Positions 1,126-64,000 of a stretch of 64,000 bases of DNA are shown in pieces. The position numbers and the translations under genes are program-made. Below the pieces are notes generated by a model. The model was not told the origin of the DNA. It searched no databases and saw only the letters and a program-made list of their open reading frames with translations. Location: contig OZ025874.1 in NCBI GenBank assembly GCA_964019415.1, positions 2,875,696-2,939,695 on the forward strand, written 5' to 3'. This DNA is from Ianthella basta. Lineage: Eukaryota; Porifera; Demospongiae; Verongiida; Ianthellidae. Within the stretch, counting starts at the first letter, position 1; every line of letters starts with the position of its first letter.

Positions 1126-2763
1126 TTATAGATAAAAATCATCCATTTCAGTGTATATCTTATCTGGATCAGAATAGTAACGGGGATCCTCCAATTGCTT
1201 GTCAGTGCAAGTCTGTTCAAACGTTTGTGGTTTGACTGTGACAGTCTCTTTTGCTGCTTTCTGTTCTGCTGGAGGGGTTCTTGCAGTCCTGTGAATACAG
1301 ACAGAATGTGTGAAGCTGTAGTGAGTTTGTTGTACAGTCATATATGTACGTACTTTGAGCTGCATACAAAGTCCCACCTGTAACATACTGCATGCTTGTA
1401 TATCATAAACTGAAATGGGTCCTGACCTAGTAGCAGCATCCTGGCTATTAGCAATGTACCCAGGCATAGCGTTCTGCTCATACAGGCCAATTATATATAG
1501 TTTGTCTAGTGCAACTTACTTTCTACTGAGAACATTTATGTATCCAATGAGTGCTATGGAAAGAATGAAAAACATGCTAGCTAAAACGGAGGTCACTGTG
1601 ATGGCTGCAGTGTTGTCTTGATTGAGATTCACAGCAGCAACTAAAGATACGCAATGTGGAGCATGGAGATCTGGAATGGTCAGCCCACAGGGCCCTGGAC
1701 CAATGAAATATCCCTTTCCGTTGAGGGAGATTGCTCTGTTCTCATCTCCTCCCAGTAGCCAATCAGCTAGGCTATTCTTTAGAGCCATCATATCTAATGT
1801 GATGTTTTCAACAGTGGACAGTCTAGCTCTGTAGATGACATAGCCACTTGCACAGGTGAAGTAGTCATCTTCCACTGTAAAGTCATATGGCAAAGCACAG
1901 CGACAGCTCTTAAAGAGCGTCCAGTACACTTCTCTGCTAACTTGGGTGCTGATAGAGGTTGTTGCTCCCTGCATTAATAGAGCATATTTTCAAGCTACAA
2001 TTTGTATATTATTGGAGCAAGTGAGGCCAGTATATAGCAAAACAATTACAAGCAACTCACAACAAAGTCAGAGCAGGTTTGAGTAGGCCAAAAATGTATT
2101 TTAAATTCAAGAATTACCTCTTGCATTGGAATATCTGTAGAAATTGGCATGGCAAAATATCACAAAGCATTTGCAATGTACACCTGTTCAATTAAGTTGC
2201 AACCCAAGTGAGCATGCTATATAATGTAGTGTAACCTACTAAATGTCACCAACTGTTTTGCTGTATTCACCACACTGGGGTTCAGTAGGCCACTTCGGTA
2301 CACTCTAACCCACATGATGTATTCTTCTTCATTGAAGTTCTCCAAAGAAGTGGTGTACATAAAGGTGGTGGTATCATTATTGATGATATTCCAAGTTGCA
2401 GATCTGTATGGGATGTACAGTGACCTGGTAGAGGAGCCATATTGGTAAAAGAAATGGAAGTAGTATATATAGCTGGAGCTGTAGTATCCATCCACAATGT
2501 CCCAAGAGACTGTGACATGAGTGGCGTTGTGAACAGCTTGAAGATTATGAGCATGATTCTCCTGGGCAGCTGCATTAGGGAAATAAGGGGATGGACTCTT
2601 TTACCCCTTTTATATGAACAAAATCTGGATTCAATCTGCAGTAAATCTTTCATGTCATTGGCTGTAGAAGGGGTGTTATAGACATGCATACAACATTTCC
2701 ATGTCCAGTACCTGTGATTGCAGACAGCAATACTGTTGTAGTGAGAAACATTCCCAGCATCAT
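1126..2763 (-). CDS. A1: FN3/SEA-like transmembrane receptor with YxEM tail
   Basis: Five coding exons: 2712-2763, 2240-2569, 2061-2134, 1520-1968, 1126-1288 (phases 1,1,0,2; 1068 nt, 355 aa). Residues 1-17 are a hydrophobic signal peptide (MMLGMFLTTTVLL). Residues 18-127 form an FN3-like domain with the core TVSWDIVDGYYSSSY and a late YIMWVRVYRS strand. Residues 128-270 carry six cysteines (QTC, CRC, FTC, GPCG, APHC) in an SEA-like membrane-proximal module. A TM helix lies at about 273-296 (core MFFILSIALIGYI). The tail ends DPDKIYTEMDDFYL; Y347-M350 fits YxxM (p85 SH2) or YxxPhi (AP-2). The exon 2 donor is GTAGGT, slightly displaced from its paralogues. Likely a surface receptor; ligand unknown. 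The family match and exon phases are visible; the SEA assignment is inferred. Confidence 0.86.
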
Positions 2764-4870
2764 AACAACTCAATTGCACCAGTTTAAAGTTAAACCTTTA
2801 GAGAAACAATGAAGAATTGTTATAATATCATTTATATTCAATATAAATGCTTAGTATTTGCCTACTAGATGAATAAGCCAGAAAAGTACACATACATAAA
2901 TGACAAAACATACTTAATAGCATAAATTTCCAAAATAAGTACTTGATGCACCTTTGCCGCTCTCTCTCTCAACTCCACGGATTTCACTGGAACTGCCCAT
3001 TTATGCTGTGCAGTGCTCTCTTATAGTGTTTAAATCTAACAGGAAGTGGGTCCGTATAATTTATTCTGCTTTTCTGTTGGGTGTTATCTAAATTGAAAAT
3101 TCTATAGTATAGTAAGCTGCAACTGGTTTATTATAGTTCTGAATAAATTATGATAAGTTTCAAATCAAATGTGTTTGAGCTATAGGTTTTACAGGAATTT
3201 TCTCTTCTACCATCATGTGCTACAGTGTACTATAGTACATGCATGTGCATGTGTACATACATGTGGCAGCACAGTAACATTAGGTATAGCTATACATGGC
3301 TAGAAACTTTGTGTGACGATCACATGCACTGTTAATTGGTGTGCGTGTGAATTGGCTGCTACATACAGTGAGTGCTCTAAGTTTTGAGTGTGATCTTCTG
3401 GTGTACGTGAGCATTGCCCTGAATTCTCACACCAGATTTGAGTGTGGCTTCATTGACTGATTCAATTGGCTACTGGTATATATATATGAAGCCAAATTCA
3501 AAATACAGTTCAGAATTGAATTTCAACATTAATAATGCATAGTAGCATGCAGTTGTAATATATGGTACAAAAGAGACACAGTTAAAGATGATAGGTCTTG
3601 TTAATAGTATGAAAATTGAGTCTGATGATCCATGCAACTTTTGGCAATATCTTGCATGCGTTACTTGAATCTTGTCTTGTCATTGAAATTTCATTGTCTT
3701 ACAGTCTTGTCTGTTGAAAAGTTGTCTTCAAATTCAGTAATCTGGACACTGTTTGGTAGTCGTCCCAATGGCAATTTGCAACAGAACAATAGTGTTTATG
3801 CTAGGTGTACAACTTTCTTTATGGAAGTACACATCATATGGTTTGGAAAACACTTCAACTGCAGTAAACAGCTGCAGAAACCACTTATTCCACATGACAT
3901 GCTGAAACAACACTGGCTGACAACAGGACTGTGGGTTATAATTGCTGTGATAATTAATAAGGGTGGTGTAAATTTCATGTATACAGAAGGCTGTTGTGGT
4001 TCTCCAGTATACACAGTGTAGAAATTAATGCAGATGAGTAAGAGCAGTGATATAATAAGAGTCTTCACAATGCACTAAAGTGCACACAACTCAACCTGTA
4101 TTGATTGGTGGTACTTGTAGAAAATGGATGCAATCCCTTTCAATCATTTTGAATTCACAACTAAAGGACAAGATGCCACCTTCTTGTCATTGTCAACCAA
4201 ATCAATCAATACATGACACAGACAAGACATGTCTCCAAGACAGGAGGACGTCCAAAGTAACTGCATGGGCACTGCTAAACAAAGAACAGATTAGGCCCAT
4301 AAGTACTATTCTAAAATAGACCAGCCATCATAATCTAGGTCTTCCTCTGGGCCATATTCCTCTATAACACCTTCAAACAATCTCCCAGCACATCTCTCAA
4401 TGCCATCCGTTCCGATCCTCCTTCCACTCCTCCTGTCTCTTCTTCACCATCTCCAGCTCCCTCCTTGTATAGTCAGCTAGTATATTGCACTTGCCATGTT
4501 GTTGCCATATAACGTAATTACATAACACTGAATTCAATGCTAAGGGTATGTTGTCAGTAGTCACCAAAGGAACAATCCCATTCTACATAAGCTGACATGA
4601 TTTGTATTGCATACCTGTACAAGGATATATTTGATATAATTATAACTGTTGGTACGTACCTTATTTTATTCCATCTGTTTGTAACATCTTCCTTACTCTG
4701 TTTAGCACACATAACTGTCTTTTTTGCTTTTCTTCATGCATAAATTTTCAGCCCTTTAAATTACACTAAAGTGCGTTCTTATAAAATACCTCCATCTAAC
4801 TTTAAGGAAGGCCATTTGTTGCCCATATTAATATTGTTTGTGACACAATTGCTACTGCCCCCTCCCACAC
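2764..4870. other. A1 upstream flank and intergenic
   Basis: Holds the putative A1 promoter at about 2950-3050. That block is shared with A2 and A3 and includes CAGGAAGTG, and A1 alone has TATAAGAG on the minus strand near 3020-3035. A diverged copy of the 51-290 repeat lies at 3765-4020. I see no coding gene in 4020-4870. Confidence 0.5.
3039..3048. promoter_or_regulatory. ETS-like motif upstream of A1
   Basis: ACAGGAAGTG lies 276 bp upstream of the A1 start codon. The same 10-mer sits 245-246 bp upstream of A2 and A3, and ACAGGAAGT lies about 162 bp upstream of C1 and C2. GGAAGT is the core of ETS-family binding sites. Function is inferred from the motif and its shared position. Confidence 0.45.
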
Positions 4871-7714: not shown

Positions 7715-10389
7715 CTATTGTCCACTTATTCCAGCACTTTTGCTCCTGCAGAAGGTGGAAATTTATTTATTCATTTCTATTCAATTTTTGTACTCATCCA
7801 CAGAGCTACAAATTTTCATTGTCCATAATACATGTATTCTCTTGAGGAAGATTCATAATGCATGGCATTGTTGTAAGCATGCACGAATGTGCCACATGCA
7901 ATTTTAAAAGATTGCCCCTATATTTATTCAACTATTTAACTGATGGGATTAATGAAAGAAGGTACATAATTAAACTAAGCTGAGAGCATATTTTGTGTCT
8001 AGCTCTGTGGGAGGAGTATGCACAATACTTACTTTCTGATGCAAAAGCAAGTGAATCCAATCAGACCTGCTGTAATGAAAAACATGGCCGCATACATTGA
8101 GGACACAATGACAGCATTGCTCATTTGATAAGTGGATGTTGTTGTGGATGCACAGTGTGGGGCATAGAGATCTGGGACAGTTACTCCACATGGTCCTGGG
8201 CCTATAATATATCTCCTTCCATTGACAGTGATTCCTCTACTTCTTTCTTCACCGTACAACCAGGTATCCACGCTATCAAGCAAGGATGATGGGGCAAATG
8301 AAGAGTTTGCCATCTGCGTGAAATCCAGAGTAGCCCTGTAGATGATGTATCCACTTGCCGGGCAGGCAAAGTATGACGAGTATTGATTGAATTGCAATTC
8401 ATATGGCAGAGAACAATGACACCCTCTGATCAGTGACCAGTACAGCTCTTGTCGAACTTGAGTGTGGGTTGAAGTTGATGTTCCCTGCATGTACGAAATA
8501 ATTGCACTTGGTCAATTAGAAAATAATGGCACCAGTTAGATGATGCAATGTTGACACAGTAGCAATCTACATACATTTTGAGTTACAACTCACAAAAAAG
8601 TCCATTTCTGAACAGGTTTGAGAAGGCCAGAGATGAATGCTGATCTCTAGGATAATCGGCTTCACATTTAGAGCATCACCCGTACCAGTACCTGTACAGT
8701 GCATATTATTGAATGCAGCACTGCTTTTGAGATGGGAGTGCAATTACTAACATATCTGCAGCATGAAATCTAACAAACATACTTACCTAAATCAACAAAC
8801 CTCCTGTTTGAGTAAGTATATCTAGGGTTCAGTGGGCTTACTCTGTACACCAGTATGTACATGATGTACTCCACATTTGTGAATGACTGCAAGCTAGAGG
8901 TGTAGAAGAATGTGACTCCATTGGTGCTGTTGCTTTGATATGTGGAGTAGTAGGGAATGTACCAAGAGGAACTAAGCGATGATCCCTGACTGTAGTACAA
9001 GATAAAGTAGCTGATGTTAGTTTCACTGTAGTTTCCATCCACAATGTCCCAGGAGACAGTGAAATGAGTGCTGGTTTTGTTCACCACTTGGAAATTGCGA
9101 ACATACTCCCTCTGGGCATCTGCATGCAGAAAAACAATCAATTAATATTAATAATACATTTTGCTACTCCACATAATTCATTTTGTTACACTAGCCAGAA
9201 GATTCAATGTATAACTCCAGATGTTTGGTCGGTTTACAGCTACCATCATCTGTGACGAAGCAATGAACCACTGCCCATGTATGTAGGATAGACATGTGGA
9301 CATTGTGTGTTGGTGCTAACGGCATGCTTACACTGTGCTGTGAATAAATGAGCCAGAAATGCTTGCCCTGGCTACAGCATGCATTTGAGCACTTATAGCC
9401 AATCATTGTCATCCTGTTTCAGTGTGAATACAATTTTCTTTTGACAGAATCTATACTGCATGCTATAATTTATACATAAATACTGAAGTAGTAAAAGGAA
9501 GTGAAGTGGAATAATCAACGTCAGACATCATGTCAAAATTGATGTGTCCACACTTTCAATAGGCCCTCTTGAAGTCCAATACACTTGTAATGGAACAAAA
9601 TCTTTATTGCATCCTTCACAATCCACCATTTGCTTATCAAAGACACAAACAATTGTACCAAAAACGCCGTACAACCGGTTGACGAATTACTTTGCCTGCA
9701 TCTTTTCACCTTCTTCTCAACAACTGGGAGGCTTGCATTCATTGTTGGATAACTAAGTTAATTTAAATATAACAGTTACCTGAAGCTATTGAGCATATCT
9801 TTAACCCCTTTTCTCCAGTTGAGTTCAGAGGAAAGGGAGCGCACGCGTGCCAAGGTTCTCGAACGTCATTGGCTTGCCATCGTGCCGTTTTCACGCTCGC
9901 CGCTGCCATGCAGTGTTGGTCGGCAGAGCATAGGATGCCAATATCACAGAGACAAATAAATAAGGCCAAGTTATCTAGATGAAGTTTACCGGTTCGGGAT
10001 AGAGATATCAAGTTACCGTGACACCAGCGGGAGAGTAGTGCTGATGTAGACCAAGATCAATCAGCCTGTGTACCTTTCCATAAATAGATGATCTAAAACT
10101 TCATATCGCTTAGTTGCGTTTGAATTCGTTGGCCGTCCAACGATTTCATTCCCATAACTACCGCTTTGTGATATACAACTTCCCATGCACCCCATCCTAA
10201 AAGGACCTTACAGATATAGCCACCTAGCAAACTAACTGAGTTCTGCCGCACTCTCCGACAGCTGTTCATGGAGTATAGTGTAATACATGTTAGTTTACCT
10301 GTGAGTGACCCAGCGAGCATCACTGTTGCCAAAAATAGACCTGCCATCCTTTCAAACGACTTCACTCCGGAAAACCGCTCTGCAGTCAT
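7715..10389 (-). CDS. C1: FN3/SEA-like transmembrane receptor with short tail
   Basis: Exons 10299-10389, 8787-9119, 8594-8691, 8033-8484, 7715-7745 (1005 nt, 334 aa; phases 1,1,0,2). The N-terminus MTAERFSGVKSFERMAG precedes a hydrophobic stretch, and Met15 could be an alternative start giving a shorter signal peptide. Residues 31-141 are FN3-like (TVSWDIVDGNYSETN, YIMYILVYR). Residues 142-295 carry the family's cysteine pattern (QTC, CHC, FAC, GPCG, APHC). The TM helix is at about 297-320 (AAMFFITAGLIGF). The tail is only KSKSAGISGQ, with no tyrosine motif, so signalling would need a partner or be absent. Intron 1 is about 1.2 kb, long for this locus. The strongest alternative is a decoy-type membrane form. 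Confidence 0.85.
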
Positions 10390-11708: not shown

Positions 11709-13215
11709 CTATATATATTCATCATCCATTTCCACATATATCTGCTCAGGTTCAGGATAGTAACTGGGATCTTGCCACTGCCTGTCAGCGAATATCTGTC
11801 TAGTTCCATCTGGTTTGGCTGTGGCAGTCTCTTTTGCTGCTTTCCGATCAGTGGAAGGGTTTCTTACAGTCCTGTGAATATACCAATAGGAAGGGCAGAA
11901 TGCATAAAGCTGCAGGTGAATTTGTTGTACATTGCTTTGCATGCAATAGTCATGAACTTACAATGGCACTGAATGAGCAGCAGTATGGCCTGTCTTTTAA
12001 CTATGCTTTCATGAGTTTGTTTATATGTTTGCAGACTACACAGATTAGTGCAAAACTTACTTTCTACTGAGTATGTTTATGTATCCAATGAGCACCAGGG
12101 ACAGGATGAAGAACATGCCAGCTAAAACAGTGGTCACAACAATGGTAGTGTTTTCACTGGGATTCTGAGCTGCAGCTAAGGATACACAGTGTGGAGCATG
12201 GAGATCTGGAATGGTCAGCCCGCAGGGCCCTGGACCAATGAAATATCCCTTTCCGTTGAGGGAGATTGCTCTGTTCTCATCTCCTCCCTGTAACCAGTTG
12301 GAAAGGCTATTCTTAAGAGCTGTCAGATCTAATGTGATGTTTTCAACAGTGGACAGTCTAGCTCTGTAGATGACATAGCTACTTGCACAGGTGAAGTAGT
12401 CATCTTCCACTGTAAAGTCATATGGCAAAGCACAGTGGCAGCTTTTAAACAGAATCCAGAGCACTTCACTGCTAACTTGTCTTCTGATGGAGGTGGATGC
12501 TCCCTGCATTGATTATATATAAAACCTAAGTTCTAGCTATCATTATTATTGGAGCAAGTTAGGCCTGTATATATAGCTAAAGCATTTACAAGCAACTCAC
12601 AACAAAGTTGGAGCAGGTTTGTGTAGGCCAAAACTGTATTTTAAACTCAAAAAATAGTTCTTGCACTGGAATTTCTGTGGATATTGACATGGTACAATTT
12701 TCACAAAGCATTTTACAACGTACAATGAGTAGGCATGCTGTACAGTATAACTTACCTAAAGCCACCAATTGTTTTGCTGTATTCACCACACTGGGGTTCT
12801 GTAGGCTGCTTCGGTACACTCTAACCCACATGATGTATTCTTCTTCATTGAAGTTTTCCAAAGAAGTGGTGTACATGAATGTGGTGGTATCATTATTGAT
12901 GATATTCCAAGTTGTTGATCTGTACGGAATGTACAGTGACCTGGTAGAAGAGCCATATTGGTAATACAAACGGAAGTAGCTGATGTAGCTGGAGCTGTAG
13001 TATCCATCCACAATGTCCCAAGAGACTGTGACATCAGTGCTGTTCTGATCAACTTGAAGATTGCGAACATGATTCTCCTGGGCAGCTGTACGTAAGGGAT
13101 AACATGTGCTTAAGGTTAGCCAGAGTTAACATTTTAGAAGACTCAATTTACAATAAGTACCTGTGAGTGATGCAGACAGCAATACTGCTGTAGTGAGAAG
13201 AACTCTCATCATCAT
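11709..13215 (-). CDS. A2: FN3/SEA-like transmembrane receptor with YxEM tail
   Basis: Exons 13161-13215, 12756-13085, 12601-12674, 12061-12503, 11709-11871 (1065 nt, 354 aa; phases 1,1,0,2). The start is three consecutive ATG codons followed by RVLLTTAVLLSASLTG, a clear signal peptide. The FN3-like exon contains VTVSWDIVDGYYSSSY and YIMWVRVYRSS. Exons 3-4 keep all six cysteines and end in a TM helix (AGMFFILSLVLIGYI). The tail ends PEPEQIYVEMDDEYI, so Y346-M349 reads YVEM, with acidic residues that favour a Src-type kinase site. It is closest to A1 and A3. It lies directly upstream in array order of C1, and this C-A pair recurs as C2-A3. Confidence 0.87.
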
Positions 13216-13767: not shown

Positions 13768-15077
13768 TGAGAGAATGAATAATATTCACCGCAGAAACAA
13801 GAACACACAGTTTTGCAGCTTCTTCATTTCTGTCATCAAGTGCTATACACAACAGCACATCTAGTATATACGCTATGCAGCTAGTACAGTTACGTACATA
13901 GCTACATTTGCATACATAATGTCCATGCTTCAATTTGTTTATATACGTATTATTCATGTCCTATGTTCATTGTGTTGTCCTAAACAAGTACATTCTTGTG
14001 CACTTGCCATGAAGGACTGAAGTGATACACAATAATCCAATCATCTAATTTGCTGGGTATGTCACTGCAGTTAATTCACACAGATCAGCAACTGTAAAAT
14101 TTGCATAATTTAGAAGATGATGTGATAATTCAGCACCTGCCACCTAGTCTGCCAATAGCTAATCGACTTAATGAGAAGCACATTCTAGTTCAGTTTGAGA
14201 ATTCCTACAGTTATCTGCTCTGGACCAATGTAAACATATCATAGTGTCATCTGCATGAAGCAAACTCTGTTTAAGGGTAGGCCCTGCATCTAAACTAAAT
14301 GTGTTCTTAGATGAGTTATCGGTGATTGAAGCATGCAACCATGACGTATTGTGTTATTTCCTTCACAACACAGATGCAGCACACACACTCACACTGTATG
14401 TAATGAGCCATCAGAGTAGCTTGCTTCATCTTTTCACTCTTGTGTGAATTCTTCCTCACAAAGGGACTAAACTTACTGTAATTTACGAGGAAAACTCTAC
14501 ATATCCACATATGTATATGTAGTCAGTGTGCCAAGGCCTTCCACGTACTGCACTTCATCATTAGTCCAAATAGCTTACATTGTTCAACCAGCTCATGTCT
14601 GCCATTCCAACTGCAGACGATAATTCAGTTAGTTTCTAGCAGACACAGTCACGGCTGCTGTAGTACACCTTTCCTTGGTAAGCCAAAGGGTCAAAGGTGG
14701 TATTATGTATGAGGCATGTACATGTGATACTGTACCATACTTAGGTCTATTCCTAATCAGGTCAATTAGATTGCTACACATTAGTTTTTATCGAAACTGT
14801 CCACGATTATATATCATGTTCCAGTCACTGCACTGGTTACAGTATGTGTAAATGGGCACATCCCGTACTAAGGGTACTAGTAACGTGTGCATGCACATGC
14901 AGGTTGAGTGCTAGATATATGCAGCACCTTCAAAGCTCACCTGTCCTTACTGCCATAACTTCATTATATTTGTCACAATGCCATGTATGCTACAGCTAGT
15001 AATCTTCCATTGGAGCATAATTCTGACTACAGTCTGAATAGTGGCTACATGTCACACTACAGTTATAAGCACACATT

Positions 15078-15385
15078 TTAGGTTCTAGTAGCTGCATCTA
15101 TGGTTATCTTCTTGGCAACTTTTGCACCTGCAGATAGAGAGGTAAGATTTAGATAATACTCATAAATTATGTGCAAATAGAACATAGAGTGAATCAAGAC
15201 ACCACACCTACCTATAATAATATACAATTGCCTAGTTACTGTACACGCACTGTGGGGGGCTGACCACATTCTGGGACATACAGACTTGGTATAGTCACTC
15301 CACATGGACCTGGCTCCACAGAGTATCGCTTCTTCATAACAGTAATAGTTTTGTTTGTGTCCTGTCCATGGAGCCTAGTAATTAT
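15078..15385 (-). pseudogene. B0: relic of a class B receptor gene
   Basis: Only the 3' part of exon 4 remains (15236 to about 15385: LHGQDTNKTITVMKKRYSVE, GPCGVTIPSL, stop TAA at 15236-15238), plus the tail-like segment at 15078-15127 (AKVAKKITIDAATRT then stop). Exon 4 is cut off by a long (CA)n tract at 15399-15520. The donor that follows the stop in B1-B3 is changed to GC here. No FN3 or signal exon lies upstream before C2. It is a truncated copy, though still very similar in sequence to B1-B3. Confidence 0.8.
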
Positions 15386-15398
15386 GTCATGTACAATG

Positions 15399-16112: not shown

Positions 16113-19100
16113 CTATCTTCCACTTCCACTTCCAGCACTTTTGTTCCTGCAGAAGGTTAAAGTTGATTCATTCCATTTCTGTTCTGGTTTGTGCTCATCC
16201 AATGAATTACACTCTGTCAGTTTTGAATTCATTGTTCTACGTAAGACTCTTTCAAGGCAGATATAAATGTGCCAAATGCAATTTTATGAACGACTCCATT
16301 ATAATTAATTAAATATTATGCTAAACAGCCTATCTCTGGTGGGATTAATGAAGGAAGGTACATATGTTATTAAACTAAGACAAGAGCTCATGCATATTGT
16401 GTCTAGTTCTGTGGATGGAGTATGCATAATACTTACCTTCTCATACAAAGGCAAGTGAATCCAATCAGACCTGCTGTAATGAAAAACATGGCCGCATACA
16501 TTGACGACACAATGACAGCATTGCTCATTTGATAAGTGGATGTTGTTGTGGATGCACAGTGTGGGGCATAGAGATCTGGGACAGTGACTCCACATGGTCC
16601 TGGGCCTATAATATATCTCCTTCCATTGACAGTGATCCCTCTACTTTGTTCTTCACCGTGCAACCATGTGTCAAGGCTATCAAGCAAGGATAATGGGGCA
16701 TATGAAGAGTTTGCCATCTGCGTGAGATCTAGAGTAGCCCTGTAGATGATGTAGCCACTTGCCGGGCAGGCAAAGTATGATGAATACTGGTTGAATTGCA
16801 AATCATAAGGCAGAGAACAACGACAGCTTCTGATCAGTGACCAGTACAACTCTTGTCGAACTTGAGTGTGGGTTGAAGTTGATGTTCCCTGCATGTACAA
16901 ATTATTTGGCGAATTATAAGGAGACAGCTAGCCCCATTTAAATGATGTACTGGTGACAGGCAGTAACCTATTCGTATATATTCCAAGTTACCACTCACAA
17001 AAAAGTCCATTTCTGAACAGGTCTGAGAAGGCCACAGATGAATGCTGATCTCCAGGATAAGTGGCTTCACATTTAGAGAATCATTGGTACCGGTACCTGT
17101 ACAATAACTGTCACTGAATGTACATTGCTAATGTATTGCATATTATAGTGGATTACACCAACATATGCAGCATGGACATTATAACAACATACCTACATCC
17201 ACAAACCTCCTATTTGAGTATGTATATGCTGGCCTCAGGCGTCTTCTGTACACTTCTATGTACATGATGTACTCTTCATAGGTAAATGACTGTGTACTAA
17301 TAGTGTAGAAGAATCTGACTGCATTAGTGCTGTTGATTTGATATGTGGAGTGGTACCAAATGTACCGAGAGTAGCTGAAGGCCCCATGATTGTAGTACAA
17401 GTAAAAGAAGCTGATGTCATTTTCACTGTAGTTTCCATCCACAATGTCCCAGGAGAGAGTGAAGTGAGTGCCAGTTTTGTTCACGAGTTGGAAGTTGCGA
17501 ACATACTCCTGCTGGGCAGCTGCAGAAAATACAATGCATTGATAAATAATTGCATGATTATATACTTGAAATATTTTCATTTTGTTACATGTACTTGCCA
17601 GAAGATTCATATGAATAACTTCAGATGTTTGGACAGCATTATCTTGCAGGTACCATCATCAGTGCTGAAGTGAAGAATCACTACTCCCATGTAGTAGGGC
17701 ATGTACGAGCAATGCTCCACTGTGCAACAGGGCCCTTCCTTTATTTCTGTATATCACTGTTCTTTATGGTTTCTGCACTTTCATGGAGCATAAGCTTATT
17801 ATGCTTTTCATTGGAATATATCACTACCTTGTTAATGCAAGAGTGCCAGGAAAGGATTCACGGATATTATTCTCTTTATTTTCAGTTTCTGCTAAGTTTG
17901 TGTCTCAGTAATTAGAGAGTTACTGTATAGTGTTAATAGGACTATGAGCTGCCATTTGTGAAGGATGAGTCACACATATTCAGGTCTCACCATAGTTACA
18001 TAGGCAGTGTGTTGGGTGCTAATGGCATGCTTACACAATGCCGTGAATGCCCAGGCTACAGCCAGAAAGCCCAGGCTACAGCATGCAATTGAGCGCTTAG
18101 CCAATCAATGTCATCCTGTTTCGTTGCGAATCTGTTGAAATAATGCTGCAAGCTACAAAACTGAAATAATAAAAGCAGGAAGTGAAATGGAATAATTAAC
18201 ATTATGCAAACAGGGATCAGGGAACAGAGAAACATCTGGGATTTGTCGCACCGATGGAAAGCATCCTAATGGTGTCACAGTGGCGCCATGGAAGAGATGT
18301 AGGCTCCTGCCTGATACCTTTGCCCCTTCCTACCTGGCCAGTGCGGCTATAGCCATGCAGGAGCCGTAGCGGCTGCAGTAGAGGAGCGGAAGAAGACCAA
18401 ATACATTTCCCTCAGCCAGTGTCACTCTTTTGTCCCTGTGGCCATTGAGACAACCAGTGTGTTTGGTCCAGAGACTTTGGTCTTCCTGCATGAGAGAGCT
18501 GGGCCAACTTCTCCAGCAGGTGTCTACTGACACCAGATCGTTCAATCATCTTATCCAGCATTTGTCAGTGGCAGTTCAGAGGGGAAATTCAGCTTCTGTA
18601 CTGGGCAGTGCTGGTCGGGAGTGTGGAGGTCCCGCCTCTTTGCAGATGATTAACTGTTTGAACACTAGGAGGCAGCAGCGCCATCTGGCTATACCTAGAG
18701 TCTCTCCTTTTGTCCCATCACTGTACCTTTTACAGGAGTATTAATCATTGCTTTATAATTATGAATGGACAGTTACTTGATGACATTTCAGGAAAAAATC
18801 TATGCAAACAAAAAATCTATGCAAACATCAAGAAGAATGTGTCCACACTTTTAAGTCCTCTCAAGTCCAGCACCCTTAAAGACACAAGCGGTATACCACA
18901 AACGCCGTGCAACAGGATAACGAATTGCTTTGCCCTAACCTTCTTCTCGACACTCAACTGGAGCTTCCATTGATGAACAACTAACATTGATCTGAAGCTA
19001 TGAAGCTTATTTCTAGTACCACTTCTCCTACTGAGCTCAGAGGTAGAGGAGAAGGGAGCGAATGCGCACGGGAGGCAATTTAAAGCTCTTGAAAGTCATT

Positions 19101-19634
19101 GGCTTGCAGTCGTACGTACCGCTTTCGCGTTCGCAGTTGGCCTGCAGAGCACAGGATGCCAATATCATGGAATAAATGAATAGGGCCAAGTTCTTTAGGT
19201 GAAATTTATTTGCACTCTGGAATAGAGGTATCAAGGTACCGCGACACCGTGGGCCAGTAGTGCCGATGTATAATCAAGATCCATATCACCCTGTGCACCA
19301 TTCTATCTTTAAGTTGTTCTCAAACTTCATATCGCTTACTTGCGTTTGAATTCGCTGGCCATCCAAGGATTTCATTCTCATAGCTGACGCTTTGCGTAAT
19401 ACCACTTTCCATGCACTCCATCCTAAAAGGACCTCATTATACGTAGACTATATAAAACATATACACTGTGACAGCTACCTAGCTAATTGAGTGCTGCCGC
19501 ACGTACTCTCTGACAGCTGGCCATGGAGTATATGCTAGTTTACCTGTGAGTGTCCCGGCGAGCATCACTGATGCCAAAAATATTCCTGCCATCCTTTCAA
19601 ACGACTTCACTCCGGAAAACCGCTCTGCCGTCAT
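16113..19634 (-). CDS. C2: FN3/SEA-like transmembrane receptor with short tail
   Basis: Exons 19544-19634, 17193-17519, 16999-17096, 16437-16888, 16113-16146 (1002 nt, 333 aa; phases 1,1,0,2). The signal region is almost the same as in C1 (MTAERFSGVKSFERMAGIFL). The FN3-like exon has TLSWDIVDGNYSENDISFF and YIMYIEVYRR. Six cysteines are retained (QTC, CRC, FAC, GPCG, APHC), followed by a TM helix (AAMFFITAGLIGF). The tail is RNKSAGSGSGR, short and Gly/Ser-rich with no tyrosine. Intron 1 is about 2 kb because a degenerate retroelement fragment sits in it on the opposite strand (18241-18660). FN3 loop residues differ from C1 much more than exon 4 does. Confidence 0.85.
18241..18660 (+). pseudogene. 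retroelement remnant (RT-associated C-terminal region)
   Basis: Plus-strand frames show RTDGKHPNGVTVAPW, DTFAPSYLASA, EERKKTKY, HSFVPVAIETTSVFGPE and LSVAVQRGNSASVLG. These match, by recognition, the conserved C-terminal region of reverse-transcriptase proteins of invertebrate retrotransposons. The pieces lie in different frames and contain stops, so the copy is dead. It sits antisense inside intron 1 of C2 and is absent from intron 1 of C1. Confidence 0.7.
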
Positions 19635-21345: not shown

Positions 21346-22912
21346 CTAAAAATCATCCATTTCAGCATATATCTGTTCAGGTTCAGGATAGTAATGGTTA
21401 TCCTGCCACTGCCTGTCAGCACAAGTCTGTTTAGTTCCATCGGGTTTGGCTGTGGCAGTCTCTCCTGTTGCTTTCCGTTCAGTGGAAGAGTTTCTTGCAG
21501 TCCTGCGAATATACCAACAGGAGGGTAGAATGCATAAAGCTGTGGGTGAATTTGTTGTACATTGCTCTACATGCAAAGCAACTCCTTTAACACAATGCAT
21601 GAGTCCATGCTTCTATACAGTGTACACCAAGTATTAAACAGTCATGAACTGAAAATGCCACTGAATAAATAGCAGTATGGCCTGTCTTTTAAATATGCTT
21701 TCATGAGTTTGTTTACATTTGCAGATTACTCTGATTAGTGCAAAACTTACTTTCTACTGAGTATGTTTATGTACCCAATGAGCGCCAGGGACAGGATGAA
21801 GAACATGCCAGCTAAAACAGTGGTCACGATGATGATAGTGTTGTCATTGAGATTCTGAGCAGCAGCTAAGGATACACAGTGTGGAGCATGGAGATCTGGA
21901 ATAGTCAGCCCACAGGGCCCTGGACCAATGAAATATCCCTTTCCATTGAGGGAGATTGCTCTGTTCTCATCTCCTTCCAGTAACCAGTCGGAAAGGCTAT
22001 TCTTTAGAGCTGTCACATCTAATGTGATGTTGTCAACAGTGGAGAGTCTAGCTCTGTAGATGACATAGCTACTTGCACAGGTGAAGTAGTCATCTTCCAC
22101 TGTAAAGTCATATGGCAAAGCACAGCGGCAGCTTTTAAAGAGAACCCAGAACACTTCACTGCGAACTTGGCTGCTGATGTAGGTGGACGTTCCCTGCATT
22201 GATTAAAGTCCTAGCCATAATCATTATTGGAGCAAGTTAGGCTGGTATAGCTAAATCATTTATATACAAGCAACTCACAACAAAGTCAGAGCAGGTTTGT
22301 GTAGGCCAAAACTGTATTTTAATTTCAAGAATTAGTTCTTGCACTGGAATTTCTGTGGATATTGACATGGTACAATTGTCACAACACATTTTACAGTGTA
22401 CGAATTTCAACTAAGCTGCACACGATGTGCATATGTTGTATAGTATAACTTACGTAAAGTCACCCATTCTTTTGCTGTATACACAGATCTGGGGTCCAGT
22501 CGGCTACTTCGGTACACTCTAACCCACATGATGTATTCTTCTTCATTAAAGTTTTCCAAAGAAGTGGTGTACATAAAGGTGGTGGTACCATTAGCACTGA
22601 TATTCCAAGTTGTTGAGCTGTAAGGTATGTACAGTGACCTGGTAGAGGAGTCATATTGGTAAAAGAAATAGAAGTAGTGTATGTAGCTGGAGCTGTAGTA
22701 TCCATCCACAATGTCCCAGGAGACTGTGACATCAGTGCTGTTCTGATCAACTTGAAGATTACGAACATGATTCTCCTGGGCAGCTGTACGTAAGGGATAA
22801 CATGTGCTTAAGGTTAGCCAGAGTTAACATTTAGAAGACTCCATTTACAATAAGTACCTGTGAGTGATGCAGACAGCAGTACTGCTGTAGTGAGAAGAAC
22901 TCTCATCATCAT
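21346..22912 (-). CDS. A3: FN3/SEA-like transmembrane receptor with YxEM tail
   Basis: Exons 22858-22912, 22454-22783, 22279-22352, 21751-22193, 21346-21502 (1059 nt, 352 aa; phases 1,1,0,2). The signal peptide MMMRVLLTTAVLLSASLTG is the same as in A2. The FN3-like exon has TVSWDIVDGYYSSSY, a variable middle, and YIMWVRVYRSSRL. The cysteine module is intact and is followed by the TM core AGMFFILSLALIGYI. The tail ends PEPEQIYAEMDDF, so Y346-M349 reads YAEM, and the protein stops two residues earlier than A1 and A2 do. Together with C2 it forms the second C-A pair of the array. Confidence 0.87.
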
Positions 22913-39215: not shown

Positions 39216-39840
39216 ATAACGATCTGCTATTAATATTTTTCTCGCTTTTGCACTTGTCTGAGGATACAGACTACACTGTGTACAAACAGTGATAGCATAA
39301 TGTATTGTACATAAAGGGATGTTTAATAACTGTAGACATAGTAGTCCTACTCTATTCTGGATGCCATAGGTTGCAACAGTTGCCATTGTGTCTGCAAATG
39401 GCACTATCCTTCAATGTTTTGAACATCAGTCAGCACTTCTTTAACTTCCTTGTTGTATACAATTCTGCAGAAAGTACCATATTAGATGCCATGCTATATT
39501 GTGTACCAAGATGACTGCCATGATCATAATGTTTCCAAACACACTCAGTACTACAGCAGACATTTGGTTCAAAGTACACTACAGCTAGTAATTGTCCATC
39601 TCAGCATAATTCTGACCACGTGCAGTCAGGATAGTGGCTACATGTCACACTACAACTCTAAAGCACCCTTTTTGTTCTTTTAGGCTCTAACAGCTGCTTG
39701 TATAGTCACCTTCCTGGCACCTTTTGCACCTGCAGATAGAGAGGTAGGGTTTATAATATATAATCATAATCATTATTCGTATATGCAAAATAGAACATAG
39801 AATGAAACAAGAAACCACACCTATGAATGCACTTACCTAG

Positions 39841-46219: not shown

Positions 46220-47766
46220 TTAGAAGTTATCCATCTCAGTGTATATCTCATCCTGATTAGAATAATAGCGAGTCTCTAATTCACACTCTTGTTTAGCAAG
46301 TGGTGTAGGTTGCTCCCTCCTAGTAGCTGCTTGGGCTGGAGCTGTGCTGGGCCTAGTAGTCTTCTTGGCCACCCTTGCACCTGTAGAACGGGTAGTTTGA
46401 CGCCTGTAGTATGTGAATGGTAGAATGAGTATATAAATCATACGTACCTCCATTTTCACTTTACATTCATATGTGCAGCTGATGAGAATGCTTCCTCACC
46501 TCCTGGCCGCTAGTATGTATCCAATGAGTCCCAGACATAAGATGAAGAACATGGCAGCAAACACAGAGGCCACAATCACAGCAGCATTATCTTGAGTAGG
46601 AGCTGCTGTTGTGGATGAGGATACTCCTGCAACTTGAGTGGCCACAGGTGTGCTGCATGTTGGGGCATAGAGTTGTGGTATTGTCACTCCACATGGACCT
46701 GGCTCCACAGAGTACCGTCTTCCATATATGGTAATAGTTTTGTCTGTATCCTGTCCATGCAGCCAATTGGTCAAGGTACTCTTCAGTGTTGCAGGATCAG
46801 CTGTGGTACTAGTTGAAAGAAGGTTGGCCCTGAAGGTGACATAGCCCCCAGCAGCACAGGTGAAGTAGCCATTGTTCAAACGGATGTATTGGAAGTAGAG
46901 ATAGGTGCACTGACAATACTTTCTGATTCCCCAGTACACCTCATTCTGTACTGCATTATTTATGCTCGTTGACTGCCCCTGCATGTGAAGGTACAGTGGA
47001 GGAGGCACGTGTATTGATTATGAGATTCTCTAATCACAGCAGGTGTTTGTACACATAGGTGAATTAAAACAATTAAGTATAACAATAGCATACACTGTTA
47101 CTCACAGTGAAGTCGAGGCATGTCTGAGATGACCAAAGCTTTATGTTCACTTCAATGGAAATTTGCCGTCCTGTATAATATTAGAGTGCAGGTAAAGGTA
47201 TAAAGCTATAGTGTATTGTATAATTATGCATACATAAATGAGATGAATGATTATTGTGTCATCATTACAATTGCATTTGATCACTTACCTACTTCAACAT
47301 AAATTTGTTCAGAGTAAGAAGCAGTAGGTTCGAGGCTAGACCTGTACACATACACCCACATGATGTACTGGCCATAAGTAGAGAAACTGGTCACTGCTGT
47401 GGTGTATTGAAATGATGAACCCAATTTAATCAAGTTCGCATCAGAGAAAGGTATGTATATGCTGGTCCTGGCGCCACTGTAGCTTGATCTCTGCCTATCA
47501 TATATTCTGAAGTAGCTGATGTAGGTGGAGGTGTAGTAGCCATCCACAATGTCCCAGGAGAAGGTGATGTGGGTGCTGTTCCTGTTGGCTACTTGGAAGT
47601 TGCGAATAGCATCTTGGGCATCTGAAAATGTGTGAATTTGACATGTGGCATTAGGTTATTGTGTACAGTCAAGGAAATATAGCACACTTAAACCTTCTTC
47701 ACCTGTGAGTGCTCCACATAACAGGACAACTGCTGTCACAGTGAATAGAGGATGGAGATTTGCCAT
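46220..47766 (-). CDS. D1: FN3/SEA-like transmembrane receptor with YTEM tail
   Basis: Exons 47703-47766, 47289-47621, 47106-47170, 46500-46978, 46220-46403 (1125 nt, 374 aa; phases 1,1,0,2). Signal peptide MANLHPLFTVTAVVLLCG. The FN3-like domain has ITFSWDIVDGYYTSTY and YIMWVYVYRSS. Cysteines are QTC, CQC, FTC, GPCG and APTC. A Ser/Thr-rich stalk (SSSTTAAPTQDN) precedes the TM helix at about 288-310 (FAAMFFILCLGLIGYIL). The tail is basic then acidic and ends SNQDEIYTEMDNF; Y368-M371 fits YxxM with an acidic, Src-like context. The acceptor TTGCTACAG abuts the ATG, and a donor at about 47976 implies a 5' UTR exon from 47978 upward. Confidence 0.88.
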
Positions 47767-50198: not shown

Positions 50199-51723
50199 TT
50201 AGAAGTCATCCATCTCAGTGTATATCTCATCCTGATTAGGATAATAGCGAGGCTCTACTTCACACTCTTGTTTAGCATGCGTTTTAGGTTGCTCCCTCCT
50301 AGTAGCTACTTGGGCTGGAGCTGTGTTGGGCCTAGTAGTCTTCTTGGCCACCCTTGCACCTGTAGAATGGGTAGTTTGACGCCTGTAGTATGTGAATGGT
50401 AAAGATGAGTATAATATTCATACCTCCACATTTACTTAACATTCATATATATGTGCAGCTGTTGAGAATCTAACCTCCTAGCAGCTAATATGTATCCAAT
50501 GAGTCCAAGAGACAAGATGAAGAACATGGCAGCAAACACAGAGGCCACAATGACAGCAGTGTTGTCTTGCGTAGGAGCTGCTGCTGTGGATGAGGATGCT
50601 CCTGCAGCTTGAGTGGCTGCAGGTGTGCTGCATGTTGGGGCATAGAGTTGTGGTATTGTCACTCCACATGGACCTGGCTCCACAGAGTACCTCCTTCCAT
50701 ATATGGTAATAGTTTTGTCTGTATCCTGTCCATTCAGCCAATTGGTCAAGGTACTCTTCAATGTTGCAGGACCAGCTGTGGTACTACTTGAAAGAAGGTT
50801 AGCTCTGAAGGTGACATAGCCCCCAGCAGCACAGGTGAAGTAGCCATTGTTCAAACGAATGTATTGGAAGTAGAGATAGGAGCATTGACAATACTTTCTG
50901 ATTCCCCAGTACACCTCATTCTGTACTGCATCATTTATGCTCGTTGATTGCCCCTGCATGTGAAGGTACAGTGGAGGAGGCACTGATTATGAGGTTCTCT
51001 GATTGCAACAGCTGCTTGTACACATAGGTGAATATTACAGATTTGCATAACAATAGCATACACTGTTACTCACAGTGAAGTCGAGGCATGTCTGAGATGG
51101 CCAAAGCTTTATGTTCACTTCAATGGAAATTTGCCGTCCTGTATAAGAATGCAAGTAAAGATTTAGAGTTAGTGTATATATGCATACATAAATGAGAAGA
51201 AATGCAGATAATGTGCTATAATTGCAATTTAATCACTCACCCACTTCAACATAAATTTGTTCTGAGTAAGAAGCAGTAGGTTCAAGGCTAGACCTGTACA
51301 CATAGACCCACATGATGTACTGGCCATAAGTAGAGAAACTGGTCACTTCTGTGGTGTACTGAAATGATGACCCAATCTTTATTAGGTTATTGTCGGAGTA
51401 AGAAATATATATAGCAGTTCGGTAATCAGTATAATAAGCTCTATCTCTGTAGAATATCTGAAAGTAGCTGATGTAGCTGGAGCTGTAGTAGGGATCCACA
51501 ATGTCCCAGGAGAAGGTGATGTGAGTGCTGTTCCTGTTGGCTACTTGGAAGTTGCGGATAGCATCTTGGGCATCTGAAAATGTTTGAATTTGACATGTGG
51601 TATTACTGTAAGTTATTGTGTACATGGTAATATAGCACACTTATATAAACCTTCTTCACCTGTGAGTGCTCCACATAGGAGAACAACTGCAGTTACAATG
51701 AATAGAGGATGGAGACTTGCCAT
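50199..51723 (-). CDS. D2: FN3/SEA-like transmembrane receptor with YTEM tail
   Basis: Exons 51660-51723, 51241-51573, 51074-51138, 50475-50953, 50199-50382 (1125 nt, 374 aa; phases 1,1,0,2). The architecture is that of D1: signal peptide starting MASLHPLF, FN3-like domain with ITFSWDIVDPYYSSSY, six cysteines, a Ser/Thr stalk, TM core AAMFFILSLGLIGYIL, and tail ending NQDEIYTEMDDF (Y368). The exon 4 donor is AG|GTTAGA instead of GTGAGG or GTGAGA. Without splicing the frame stays open for 14 more codons (LDSQQLHIYMNVK, then stop), so intron retention would give a different short tail. Confidence 0.86.
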
Positions 51724-57102: not shown

Positions 57103-58665
57103 TTAGAAGTCATCCATCTCAGTGTATATCTCATCCTGATTAGGATAATAGCGAGGCTCTACTTCACACTCTTGTTTAGCACACGTTTTAGGTTGCTCCC
57201 TCCTAGTAGCTGCTTGGGCTGGAGCTGTGTTGGGCCTAGTAGTCTTCTTGGCCATCCTTGCACCTGTAGAACGGGTAGTTTGACGCCTGTATACAAGTGA
57301 TAGAATGAGTATAAGAACAATACCCCTACTTTTGCCCAACATTCATGTGTGTAGCTGATGAGAATACTCTCTCACCTCCTGGCCGCTAGTATGTATCCAA
57401 TGAGTCCCAGAGACAAAATGAAGAACATGGCAGCAAATACAGAGGCCACAATGACGGCAGTGTTGTCTTGAGTAGGAGCTGCTGTTGTGGATGAGGATGC
57501 TTGTGCAGCTTGAGTGGCTGCAGGTGCGCTGCATGTTAGGGCATAAAGCTGTGGTACAGTCACTCCACATGGACCTGGCTCCACAGAGTACTGTCTTCCA
57601 TATATGGTAATAGTTTTGTCTGTGTCCTGCCCATGCAGCCAACTAGTCAAGGTGCTCTTGAAGGAAGCTGGATCAGTGGTAATGTCAGTTGAATACAAGT
57701 GAGCTCGAAATGTGACATAGCCACTTTCGCTGCAGGTGAAGTAGCCATTGTTCAGCCTGATATCTTGAGTGATTTGGTAGGTGCACTGACAGTACTTCCT
57801 GAGGGCCCAGTACACTTCATTCTGAACTGCCACGTAGGTGTTAGTAGAGAGTTCCTACATATACATTCAGTGCAAGATATAATTGTACATAATTATATAG
57901 AATATTAATAATAACTTCATTATTGATAATTAATGACCGGCACTATTTTGAACCTTGTATATAACATGCGATGTTACTCACAGAGAACTCGTGACAGGAT
58001 TGAGATGGCCAAAACTTTATGTTCATTTCAATGGAGATTTGTTGACCTTGGTTGGTTGCATGTAGGGAACAGGGATGCAGTGGGTTACATCCAGGGATGT
58101 TGTATTAGAGAGTAATACATGCAAAAAAAACTGTTAGAAAGGAGTGGGAAAGCACATTGTGACTTACCTAAATCAACAGAGAGTTGAGCAGAGTAGGAGC
58201 TTGAAGGTGTAAGGCTATACCTGTATACACGGACCCACATGACATGTTCACCATTGTATCCAGTCGCAATAGTAGTTATAGTGTACTTAAAAGAGCGTCC
58301 CGACTGAATCAGATTGACATTTGAGGTTGAAAATGAGTAGTAGCTAGTATAGCCAGAACCAGATGGAGCCTGTAGTATATGCGAAAACTATCGATGTAGC
58401 TGGAGTCGTAGTAGCTGTCCACAATATCCCAGGAGAAGGTGATGTGAGTAGTGTTCCGTTTGGCTACTTGGAAGTTGCTGATAGCATCCTGAGCAACTGC
58501 ACGAGTTGGATATACAACTACAGCATTAAAGTACAGTGTGTACGAATGTATTTACCGAATACTGTAATATTATTATATGCTTCAACCTGCAGCTGCTTTA
58601 CCTGTAGGCATTCCACATAACAGGAAAGCTGCTGTGATAATGAGTAGGGGAGGGAAAGTGGACAT
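57103..58665 (-). pseudogene. D3: receptor gene with one frameshift in the FN3 exon
   Basis: Exons 58602-58665, 58168-58496, 57982-58046, 57376-57854, 57103-57286. All splice sites and all other exons are intact: signal peptide MSTFPPLLIITAAFLLCG, cysteines QSC, CQC, FTC, GPCG and LTC, TM core FAAMFFILSLGLIGYIL, tail ending NQDEIYTEMDDF. The FN3 exon is 329 nt, where paralogues have 330 or 333. The frame breaks after FRIYYR near 58369-58371, consistent with loss of one base, and leads to a stop about 20 codons on. Because everything else is preserved, this may be a recent null allele or a sequencing error. Its FN3 and exon 4 N-terminal half resemble class B; the stalk, TM and tail are class D. 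Confidence 0.75.
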
Positions 58666-59870
58666 CTGTATTTAACAGAGAGAAGTCTGCTTTTGAGCCA
58701 TTTAGGACCAGAAATCAATGGTACAGTGTATATAACCAACACAGAACCATCATCTGATGGGATAAGACTACATTGTAGTTGCACCACCTACCTTTCAATC
58801 ACATCAATCCTGTGTTTTCACTAGTTCCAGACTAACTGCAACTATGTAACTACAGTTTATATGGCTGAACAATTCTATTAGTCACTGTATCTGCACATGC
58901 ACCATTGTACAGCTAGCCAATTAGTGCTGGCATGAAGCCATATGGATAGCCTTTACAACCTTGCCTAGCTGCAACACACATTATTGCTTATCATGCCATG
59001 GATCTCTGCTGTAATGTTTTGCTCATAAGGCTTAATTTGGAATTCAATGTGCATAAGAGGGAACTGAAAGAGCAATACTGCATCTATACACACAAGGGGA
59101 AATACGTGGTGGCAGGACGTTTCGGCTCAAAAGCCTTTGTCAACTACTTACAAGCACAGCTCACTCTATAAGCAATTGACAGGCTCTCAAACCAGGCAGA
59201 ATCATCCTGCTCCCACATCTTGTGCATGTAAAACTGCAGTGCTGCTTTTAAGTTTTATGTCATGTGACCTAATCATGTATGTAATGTTAAGGACAAAAGT
59301 AATATGTGAGGAAAGGAGAGATGGAAGATAGAACAATAGGATAATCTGCCATAATACATTGTGTTTTGGGACAGTTGTTCTGAATGGATTGTGCAATCGG
59401 TACTGATAATAATATTAGGTATCAATGTTGGTAATAAATAGCTAGTGACATCGCTGTGGCAGCTGGAAGGAGGAAAGCTGGCATGCAATTATAGCATAGT
59501 CAGATGATTTTAGGGTATTAGTAAGATTGATGTAGACATTTCTGTACGTATGGAGGTGATAATGCCTCTAGTAGTGAACGAACAGTGCACAAAAATTGAT
59601 CTCAGGTGGTATTCTTATGAAATTGCATGCACTCCAAGTCATTGGCAAAGTTGCCAAATTAAATATTAATCACGAACAGTTGCAAATTGTAGTCGCAGCC
59701 TTGACCACATAGTCTTAAATTTCTATTCACTCTCCATATTCAACAGAACTGGGTATATATATGTAAGGGCTAACTTGAATGAAGTCACCAGGTCGTTGTT
59801 TAATTGCTGATAATTGATTGAATTTACTGAACCAAAAAGTACCATAACAGTGTTTGCAGTTATCACTTAC
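58666..59870. other. D3 upstream flank and spacer
   Basis: A donor-like AAG|GTAGGTGG near 58790 suggests a 5' UTR exon for D3. 59116-59143 holds a GACAAAGGC, GAGCCGAAACGTC motif on the minus strand. Exons 3-5 expected downstream of D4 are absent. No gene seen. Confidence 0.5.
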
Positions 59871-60352
59871 CTACTTCAATATAGATTTGTTCGAAGTAAG
59901 ATGTGGAAGGTTCAAGGCTAGACTTGTACACATAGACATGACATATTGGCCAATATCACGGTAGGAAAAGCTGGTTATAGAGTTTGTGTACTGAAATGAA
60001 GTTTCAATCTTTATCAGATTGCTGTCAGAGTAAGAGATCGAACCAATATAGGTATAATAGCCAGTATAACCAGCTCTATTCCTTTAGTATATGCGAAAGT
60101 AGTTGATGTAGGTGGTGGTGCATAAGCCATCCACAATGTCCCAGGAGAAGGTGATGTGGGTGCTGTTCTGACTGATAACTTGGAAGTTGCAAATAGCATC
60201 TTGGGCATCTGAAAATGTTTGAATTGACATGTGGCATTAGGATATTGTGTACAGTCAAGGAAATATAGCACACATATTCCTTCTTCACCTGTGAGTGCTC
60301 CACATAACAGGACAACGGCTGTCACAGCAAATAAAGGATGGAGACTTGCCAT
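59871..60352 (-). pseudogene. D4: truncated receptor pseudogene (signal + FN3 only)
   Basis: Exon 1 (60289-60352) is intact: MASLHPLFAVTAVVLLCG, donor ACAG|GTGAAG. The FN3 exon (59871-60208) begins with the usual AT GCC CAA acceptor context but has an in-frame TAA after FRIY, where paralogues have Tyr, and loses four bases after QYVM near 59937. No exon 3, 4 or 5 lies in the 1.2 kb before D3. The upstream flank is class D type. A dead, 3'-truncated copy. Confidence 0.85.
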
Positions 60353-62648: not shown

Positions 62649-64000
62649 TTAGAAGTCATCCATTTCGGTGTATATCTCATCCTGATTAGGATAATAGCGA
62701 GGTTCTACTTCACACTCTTGTTTAGCATGCGTTTTAGGTTGCTCCCTCCTAGTAGCTGCTTGGGCTGGAGCTGTGCTGGGTCTAGTAGTCTTCTTGGCCA
62801 TCCTTGCACCTGTAGAACGGGTAGTTTGACGCCTGTAGTACGTGAATGGTGGAATGAGTATAAGAATCATACCTCTAATAACATTCATATGTGTAGCTGA
62901 TGAGAATGCTTCCTCACCTCCTGGCCGCTAGTATGTATCCAATGAGTCCAAGAGACAAGATGAAGAACATGGCAGCAAACACAGAGGCCACAATGACAGC
63001 AGTGTTGTCTTGAGTAGGAGCTGCTGTTGTGGATGAGGATGCTTGTGCAACTTGTGTGGCTGCAGGTGTGCTGCATGTTGGGGCATAAAGTTGTGGTATT
63101 GTCACTCCACATGGACCTGGCTCCACAGAGTACCTCCTTCCATATATGGTAATAGTTTTGTCTGTATCCTGTCCTTGCAGCCAATTGGTCAGGGTGCTCT
63201 TCAAAGTTGCAGGACCAGCTGTGGTACTACTTGAAAGAAGGTTGGCTCTGAAGGTGACATAGTCCCCAGCAGCACAGGTGAAGTAGCCATTGTTCAAACG
63301 AATGTATTGGAAGTAGAGATAGGTGCACTGACAATACTTTCTGATTCCCCAGTACACCTCATTCTGTACTGCACCATTTATGCTCGTTGACTGCCCCTGT
63401 GAAGGTGTAGTGGAGGAGGCACTGATTATGAGGTTCTCTAATCACAGCAGCTGCTTGTACACAGGTGAATATTACAGATTTGCATAACAATAGCATACAC
63501 TGTTACTCACAGTGAAGTCGAGGCATGTCTGAGATGGCCAAAGTTTTATGTTCACTTCAATGGAAATTTGCCGTCCTGTATAAGAATGCAAGTAAAGATT
63601 TAGAGTTAGTGTATATATGCATACATAAATGAGAAGAAATGAAGATATTATGCTATAATTGCAATTGCATCTAATCACTCACCTACTTCAACATAAATTT
63701 GTTCAGAGTAAGAATTGGAAGGTTCAAGGCTAGACCTGTACACATGAACCCACATGATGTACTGGCCATAAGTAGAGAAACTGATCACTTCTGTGGTGTA
63801 CTGAAATGATGACCCAATCCTTATTAGGTTATTGTTGGAGTAAGAAATATATATAGTAGTTCGGTAACTAGTATAACCAGCTCTATCTCTGTAGAATATC
63901 TGAAAGTAGCTGATGTAGCTGGAGCTGTAGTAGCCATCCACAATGTCCCAGGAGAAGGTGATGTGGGTGCTGTTTCGGTTGGCTTCTTGGAAGTTGCGGA
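62649..64000 (-). CDS. D5: FN3/SEA-like transmembrane receptor, 5' end off window
   Basis: Exons visible: 63683-64000 (FN3, continuing past the edge), 63511-63575, 62918-63396, 62649-62832. The signal exon and the first few FN3 codons lie beyond 64000. The FN3-like domain has ITFSWDIVDGYYSSSY and YIMWVHVYRSS. Six cysteines are retained (QTC, CQC, FTC, GPCG, APTC), with a Ser/Thr stalk, TM core AAMFFILSLGLIGYIL, and tail ending NQDEIYTEMDDF. All visible exons are open and in phase. Closest to D2, with differences clustered in FN3 and the stalk. Confidence 0.86.

Follow-up and report, generated by a model that had tools for sequence, protein, structure and literature searches.

What does a tandem array of related genes in the sponge Ianthella basta encode, and could its products be recognition receptors? 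We analyzed a 64,000-nucleotide stretch of contig C7 (GenBank OZ025874.1, positions 2875696-2939695, hereafter the window), in which a first-pass annotation had described a cluster of receptor-like genes with a fibronectin type III (FN3) domain and a SEA-like domain, and had read it as a recognition or immune locus. The explanation that we favor, with moderate confidence, is that these genes are a family of type I recognition receptors at the cell surface, encoded in the germline and multiplied by tandem duplication, for which we infer a role in self/non-self or microbe recognition. The evidence comes from the shared gene anatomy, a mosaic FN3 middle in one gene type and the different ways in which the proteins end.

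A tandem array with a common exon plan

Searching the window with exon proteins (tblastn) located twelve gene copies and two relics, all on the minus strand as first described, and the copies fall into four types (three A, two D, three B and four C). Their common plan has five exons: exon 1 encodes a signal peptide, exon 2 the FN3 domain, exon 3 is short, exon 4 encodes a cysteine-rich domain, a stalk and a transmembrane (TM) segment, and the last exon encodes the tail. Intron phases and exon edges were read by hand from the splice contexts of the window copies. Exon 1 was located in 11 of the 12 copies and exon 3 (65-98 nt) in all of them; the intron between exons 1 and 2 is in phase 1 in 11/12, those between exons 2 and 3 and between exons 3 and 4 are in phases 1 and 0 throughout, and the last is in phase 2 in eight copies (the A and C copies and gene 2). 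The identical phases proposed earlier were thus recovered, for the exon 4/5 intron in 8/12 copies. The last exon of gene 4 (the 16.4-19.6 kb copy) was looked for and not located. Two copies call for a correction: gene 11, whose frame breaks inside FN3, and gene 12, which is cut at the window edge with its exon 1 out of view. Gene 11 is probably a pseudogene, judging from this break.

The array extends far past the window. When 286 kb were scanned with a profile (N accounting for 12.5 kb), 41 exon-4 matches scored above 80 bits. Of these, 39 lie on the minus strand, and two appear to be the halves of a single copy. A pattern search gave an exon 3 candidate for 26 of the 41, including all twelve window copies, and none for ten, the remaining five being without an assigned FN3. 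When four protein queries were run against the 209-Mb, 96-contig genome, all matches listed fell on contig C7; those of two queries lay in this array only, and those of the other two also reached a second array. Genome-wide match counts are lower bounds. The mitochondrial contig of this genome has 21,233 bases; its COX1 match runs through 9 TGA codons, and the gene order, assigned by eye as nad3, nad4L, cox1, cox2, trnK, atp8, points most probably to a demosponge.

An FN3 head with a mosaic middle in type C

Exon 2 is an FN3 domain by its predicted structure. Pfam fn3 matched all four exon-2 proteins compared, weakly (E 5e-5 to 5e-3) and at 17.6-23.8 bits, so that none of the four reached the curated cut-off of PF00041 (25 bits), and the best PDB profile match was a monobody, which is an FN3 (E 7e-4). 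The AlphaFold model, built from an alignment of 11 of the 12 window sequences (gene 11 was excluded for its frame break), had a pLDDT of 87.5; its beta sandwich agrees with FN3 structures, and among the matches listed by Foldseek and VIA-align most were FN3-containing. Those listed by VIA-align were cytokine receptors, adhesion proteins and engineered FN3 binders, which say little on function. Structure prediction of this exon had been named in advance as a possible refutation; it gave the FN3 fold, and the FN3 middle of the original description stands. Each window gene has a single FN3 exon, and no WSXWS motif was seen by eye in the FN3 alignments.

Nonsynonymous and synonymous differences (pN and pS) were counted by the Nei-Gojobori method in 27 units, paired by hand out of the 41 and placed in six groups. 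In agreement with the claim that the copies differ most in FN3, pN was higher there than in the membrane-proximal domain in 6/6 groups, and among three FN3 segments it was highest in the middle in groups B, D and E. Group pN/pS was 0.40-0.64 in FN3 and 0.13-0.62 in the membrane-proximal domain; on these counts, both domains are under purifying selection.

The middle of the type-C FN3 is a mosaic. We followed identity along eight type-C genes, three in the window and five outside. In the two 60-base windows that flank a 120-base FN3 stretch, genes 9 and 10 share 92% and 98% identity, against only 52% and 72% within it; across this stretch gene 9 is 92% and 85% identical to the outside copy U01. 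The segment analysis of the eight genes excluded gene 11 and dropped copy U02, which is in the pN/pS set, as more divergent. Here pS was 0.20 for FN3 residues 1-36, 0.68 for residues 37-66, 0.37 for residues 67 to the end and 0.33 for the membrane-proximal domain; between genes 9 and 10 the values were, in the same order, 0.09, 1.23 (saturated, few sites), 0.19 and 0.11. Genes 10 and 12 had a pS of 0.00 in the middle, and the pair U05-U06 showed the reverse pattern, with 0.41 at the FN3 start vs 0.05 in the middle. In the AlphaFold model, residues 37-66 form strands C and C' together with neighboring loops. Permutation within FN3 gave p values of 0.02, 0.30, 0.001, 0.001, 0.001 and 0.003 for six triplets that were picked after seeing the table. 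The pairwise homoplasy index (PHI) was significant for the eight genes (FN3 p 0.0015; membrane-proximal domain p 0.0005) and for six of them (p 0.044 and 0.0005), and over all 27 units the membrane-proximal domain gave p 0.049.

In FN3, two very recent duplicates elsewhere in the array (C7 2743666-2747175 and 2776952-2780433) are separated by two nonsynonymous changes and no synonymous one; in the membrane-proximal domain they differ by two synonymous changes and no nonsynonymous one.

YxEM-tail, short-tail and secreted forms

The three kinds of ending that had been described were all found. A YxEM tail is present in seven of the twelve window copies (all A and C), the D copies have a short tail (last exon read in one of the two), and the three B copies have a stop ahead of the last donor and no TM. 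YxEM is common to types A and C despite only 46-47% identity of their exon-4 proteins. A pattern search along the minus strand of the array found 22 tails, of which 17 are open to the stop (16 YxEM and one YTAM), three are ghosts after the stop of secreted copies and two lie in disrupted copies. One further YTEM tail from outside this search brings the open tails to 18 (17 YxEM, one YTAM); at least three of the open YxxM tails sit in copies broken elsewhere. PI3K p85 binds motifs of the YxxM form, and the DEIYTEM context presumably resembles a Src-family substrate. A ghost tail follows the stop in 3/3 secreted copies, in one case with F in place of Y. These ghosts suggest that the secreted type B forms arose from a signaling gene by losing TM and tail.

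A membrane-proximal domain apparently common to two arrays

Constant features of the domain encoded by exons 3 and 4 are, among others, the WP of exon 3, several cysteines and PGPCG; no sequence relatives of the domain were found in Pfam or PDB. The SEA-like label was not borne out by sequence: SEA was matched in Pfam by none of six spliced exon 3+4 domains (one of them the family consensus) and none of four exon-4 proteins, and hhalign against one mucin-1 SEA sequence gave a probability of 0.1%. Only the predicted element order fits, H-E-E-H-E-E beside the beta-alpha-beta-beta-alpha-beta of the SEA fold, and because it comes from a poor AlphaFold model (pLDDT 46.6) that lacks exon 3, the label remains a guess; SEA was absent among the VIA-align matches listed for this model. 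The hairpin that is a candidate for the SEA cleavage position reads, for example, GGYVTFRA, SGYVIYRA or SSYVIYRA, with an uncertain alignment of that position to SEA. The SEA cleavage site is of the GSVVV type, and some SEA domains have no cleavage site.

The second array, at C7 1.83-2.05 Mb, was reached by weak matches (24-31% identity, E 1e-5 to 0.03). Its own domain, represented by an exon 3 and an exon 4 from neighboring copies in stretch L034 that were joined by hand, aligned with the family profile over 120 columns (hhalign probability 97%, E 5e-11), and its exon 3/4 boundary also looks to be in phase 0, after a WP..C..F element. The head is a different cysteine-containing domain, which the repeated genes of L034 have as a single exon and L033 as five tandem open reading frames; it had no useful Pfam match and no detectable relation to the FN3 head. 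Because the second-array domain matches the family profile while its head shows no detectable relation to FN3, one membrane-proximal module seems, from these alignments, to carry different heads in the two arrays.

Feature coordinates and further observations

Table 1. Features of the array. Positions are those of the window unless given on contig C7.
Feature	Position	Strand	Details
Gene 1, type A	1126..2763	-	Exon 1 ~2763-2712, FN3 ~2569-2240, exon 3 2134-2061, exon 4 ~1968-1520, tail exon ~1288-1126 (YTEM)
Gene 2, type D	7715..10389	-	Candidate signal exon 10347/10389, FN3 ~9120-8782, exon 3 ends 8594, exon 4 ~8484-8033, short tail KSKSAGISGQ
Gene 3, type A	11709..13215	-	YVEM tail
Relic	15020..15397	-	Type-B-like exon-4 fragment (15239-15397), tail-like remnant near 15020
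Gene 4, type D	16436..19634	-	Candidate signal exon 19592/19634, FN3 17520-17191, exon 4 ~16888-16436
Gene 5, type A	21346..22912	-	YAEM tail
Gene 6, type B, secreted	26402..27769	-	Stop 26664-26666, no TM; ghost tail FAEMDNY ~26402
Gene 7, type B, secreted	34378..35738	-	Ghost tail YAEMDDY ~34378
Gene 8, type B, secreted	39585..40965	-	Ghost tail YAEMDNY ~39585
Gene 9, type C	46220..47766	-	YTEM tail; FN3 middle like that of copy U01 outside the window
Gene 9, variable FN3 middle	47425..47514	-	Residues 37-66
Gene 10, type C	50199..51723	-	YTEM tail; start inferred from signal-peptide match
Gene 10, variable FN3 middle	51377..51466	-	Residues 37-66; strands C and C' and following loops in model
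Gene 11, type C	57103..58665	-	YTEM tail; frame break inside FN3 exon
Relic	59866..60352	-	Signal exon and broken FN3 exon only
Gene 12, type C	62649..64000	-	YTEM tail; cut by window edge; variable FN3 middle ~63819-63908
Second array, L033	C7 1933001-1941000
Second array, L034	C7 2037001-2045000

Stretches L010-L013 (C7 2.670-2.704 Mb) hold four long units that are close relatives of one another and have a short tail and a Pro-, Ser- and Thr-rich stalk; their FN3 lies 2-6 kb away from exon 4, and exon 3 was not found by pattern. Beyond the end of the window (L030 from base 5696), 5 kb of N is followed by a long repetitive purine-rich stretch, past which lie a further FN3 exon (L035 1235-1666) and, upstream of it, a signal-like exon (L035 2261-2644). 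Within the window, a pair of 43-base inverted repeats that interlock (98% and 95% complementary) occupies 5787-6072 and possibly forms a small hairpin element.

A proposed recognition receptor family and its alternatives

If the array encodes recognition receptors, the FN3 head would bind the ligand. In type C, the middle of this head (strands C and C' with the adjacent loops) takes strongly divergent forms, which copies have either swapped or kept separate, with the FN3 flanks, the membrane-proximal cysteine-rich domain, TM and tail staying similar across these copies. YxEM-tailed copies would signal via SH2 proteins; the short-tail and secreted copies would share the ectodomain without the signal, and may serve as decoys, opsonins or ligands. 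The recognition cluster that was first proposed is consistent with these data, and is strengthened by the type-C mosaic, the secreted copies with ghost tails and the second array on the contig.

Several results weigh against this explanation. No group had a domain-wide pN/pS above 1 (the single pair F2-F4 had 1.11 in FN3), and in the FN3 middle groups E and F alone reach 1.0-1.4, from a small number of changes. Excess synonymous divergence in the FN3 middle is limited to type C and absent in A, B, D, E and F, one of the six chosen triplets was non-significant within FN3 (p 0.30), and PHI over all 27 units was non-significant for FN3 (p 0.99) and for both domains joined (p 0.79). The final 15 codons of the tail are just slightly more constrained than the preceding 35 (0.47 vs 0.62, 11 tails), and the TMs of short-tail copies, examined by eye, have no charged residue for an adaptor.

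Two alternatives are special cases of a recognition family. It is a tentative possibility that the products are receptors that sense microbes, along with secreted opsonins, and that filter feeding and symbiosis drove their diversification: secreted and membrane forms share a single ectodomain, and sponges are reported, in excerpts of the source, to expand SRCR receptors, some joined to FN3 (PMC4772301), but the structural matches listed for the FN3 model have little bearing on a microbe-sensing function. We consider it somewhat doubtful that the locus is an allorecognition complex, in which FN3 heads would be polymorphic self-markers binding in trans, secreted copies would modulate and YxEM tails would set acceptance or rejection. 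The two arrays on one contig with a common membrane-proximal domain do resemble the two Hydractinia Alr clusters as excerpted (PMC11876637), and tyrosine-motif and secreted members also occur at the Botryllus fuhc locus, in the portion of the review available (PMC12065747); however, the authors of an Amphimedon graft transcriptome state in its excerpted text that adhesion genes were not significantly enriched, and the words "receptor" and "fibronectin" have 0 occurrences in its main text (PMC5450542).

The remaining alternatives would deny the genes a recognition role. That they are cytokine- or growth-factor-like receptors, or developmental adhesion molecules, multiplied without such a role appears unlikely: the genes pair a single FN3 with an unassigned domain, and ~40 copies, with a mosaic middle in type C, are unusual for one ligand. 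Relics and frame breaks within the array favor mostly decaying tandem duplicates without present function, their mosaic being gene conversion alone; yet pN/pS was below 1 in 6/6 groups and splice contexts are intact in the window copies examined, and we judge decay very improbable. A more ambitious form of the recognition reading, which we hold to be rather doubtful, is a super-locus of two linked arrays with one new membrane-proximal domain, in which an FN3 head with a shuffled ligand-binding middle, 1-5 copies of the second head, and signaling, non-signaling and secreted forms would jointly decide self vs non-self.

Comparison with known systems

Among the best-ranked matches in the open-licence literature we found no FN3 and cysteine-domain receptor array in sponges; subscription papers lie mostly outside this search, which is no proof of novelty. 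To our knowledge, the receptors behind allorecognition in sponges are not known. According to a 2025 review, in the portion available, how allorecognition works in invertebrates is a mystery, and the proteins proposed for it in sponges, cnidarians and ascidians are not conserved (PMC12065747). An array with a mosaic-middle FN3 head and with signaling and secreted forms offers a concrete locus for studies of sponge recognition. If our explanation is true, the locus would represent a recognition system in animals built on a diversified FN3 head, together with a membrane-proximal domain that had no Pfam match and is common to two arrays.

Class I cytokine receptors and FN3 adhesion receptors share the FN3 fold with these genes. 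Two FN3 domains, the WSXWS motif and a JAK-binding box characterize a class I cytokine receptor, whereas the window genes have one FN3 exon, no WSXWS by eye and another membrane-proximal domain, which rules against this assignment. CD28/DAP10-type co-receptors have a short tail with a YxxM motif and are alike in this respect; their ectodomain is unrelated, and the tails of the array are putative PI3K-binding sites. Alr proteins of Hydractinia are immunoglobulin-like, in contrast to the one FN3, cysteine-rich domain and YxEM tail found here. No immunoglobulin families were among the Pfam matches of eight exon proteins up to E 10, and the structural matches were FN3, which rules against an Alr or immunoglobulin-superfamily allorecognition receptor. 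The likeness to Hydractinia lies in the arrangement, which in the excerpted report comprises 40 Alr and Alr-like genes in two clusters on one chromosome, some of them potential pseudogenes (PMC11876637). The fuhc locus of Botryllus (fuhc-sec/tm, fester, FcoR) similarly combines secreted and transmembrane members and tyrosine-motif receptors at one locus; it differs, as far as the available portion of the review describes it, in its immunoglobulin, EGF and sushi domains, its ITIM/hemITAM motifs and a fuhc-sec without a hypervariable region (PMC12065747). The sponge SRCR expansions, including the tandem scavenger-receptor arrays of Amphimedon, are by the excerpted accounts likewise expansions of immune-type domains (PMC4772301, PMC3447736) and differ from the array described here in being built on another domain.

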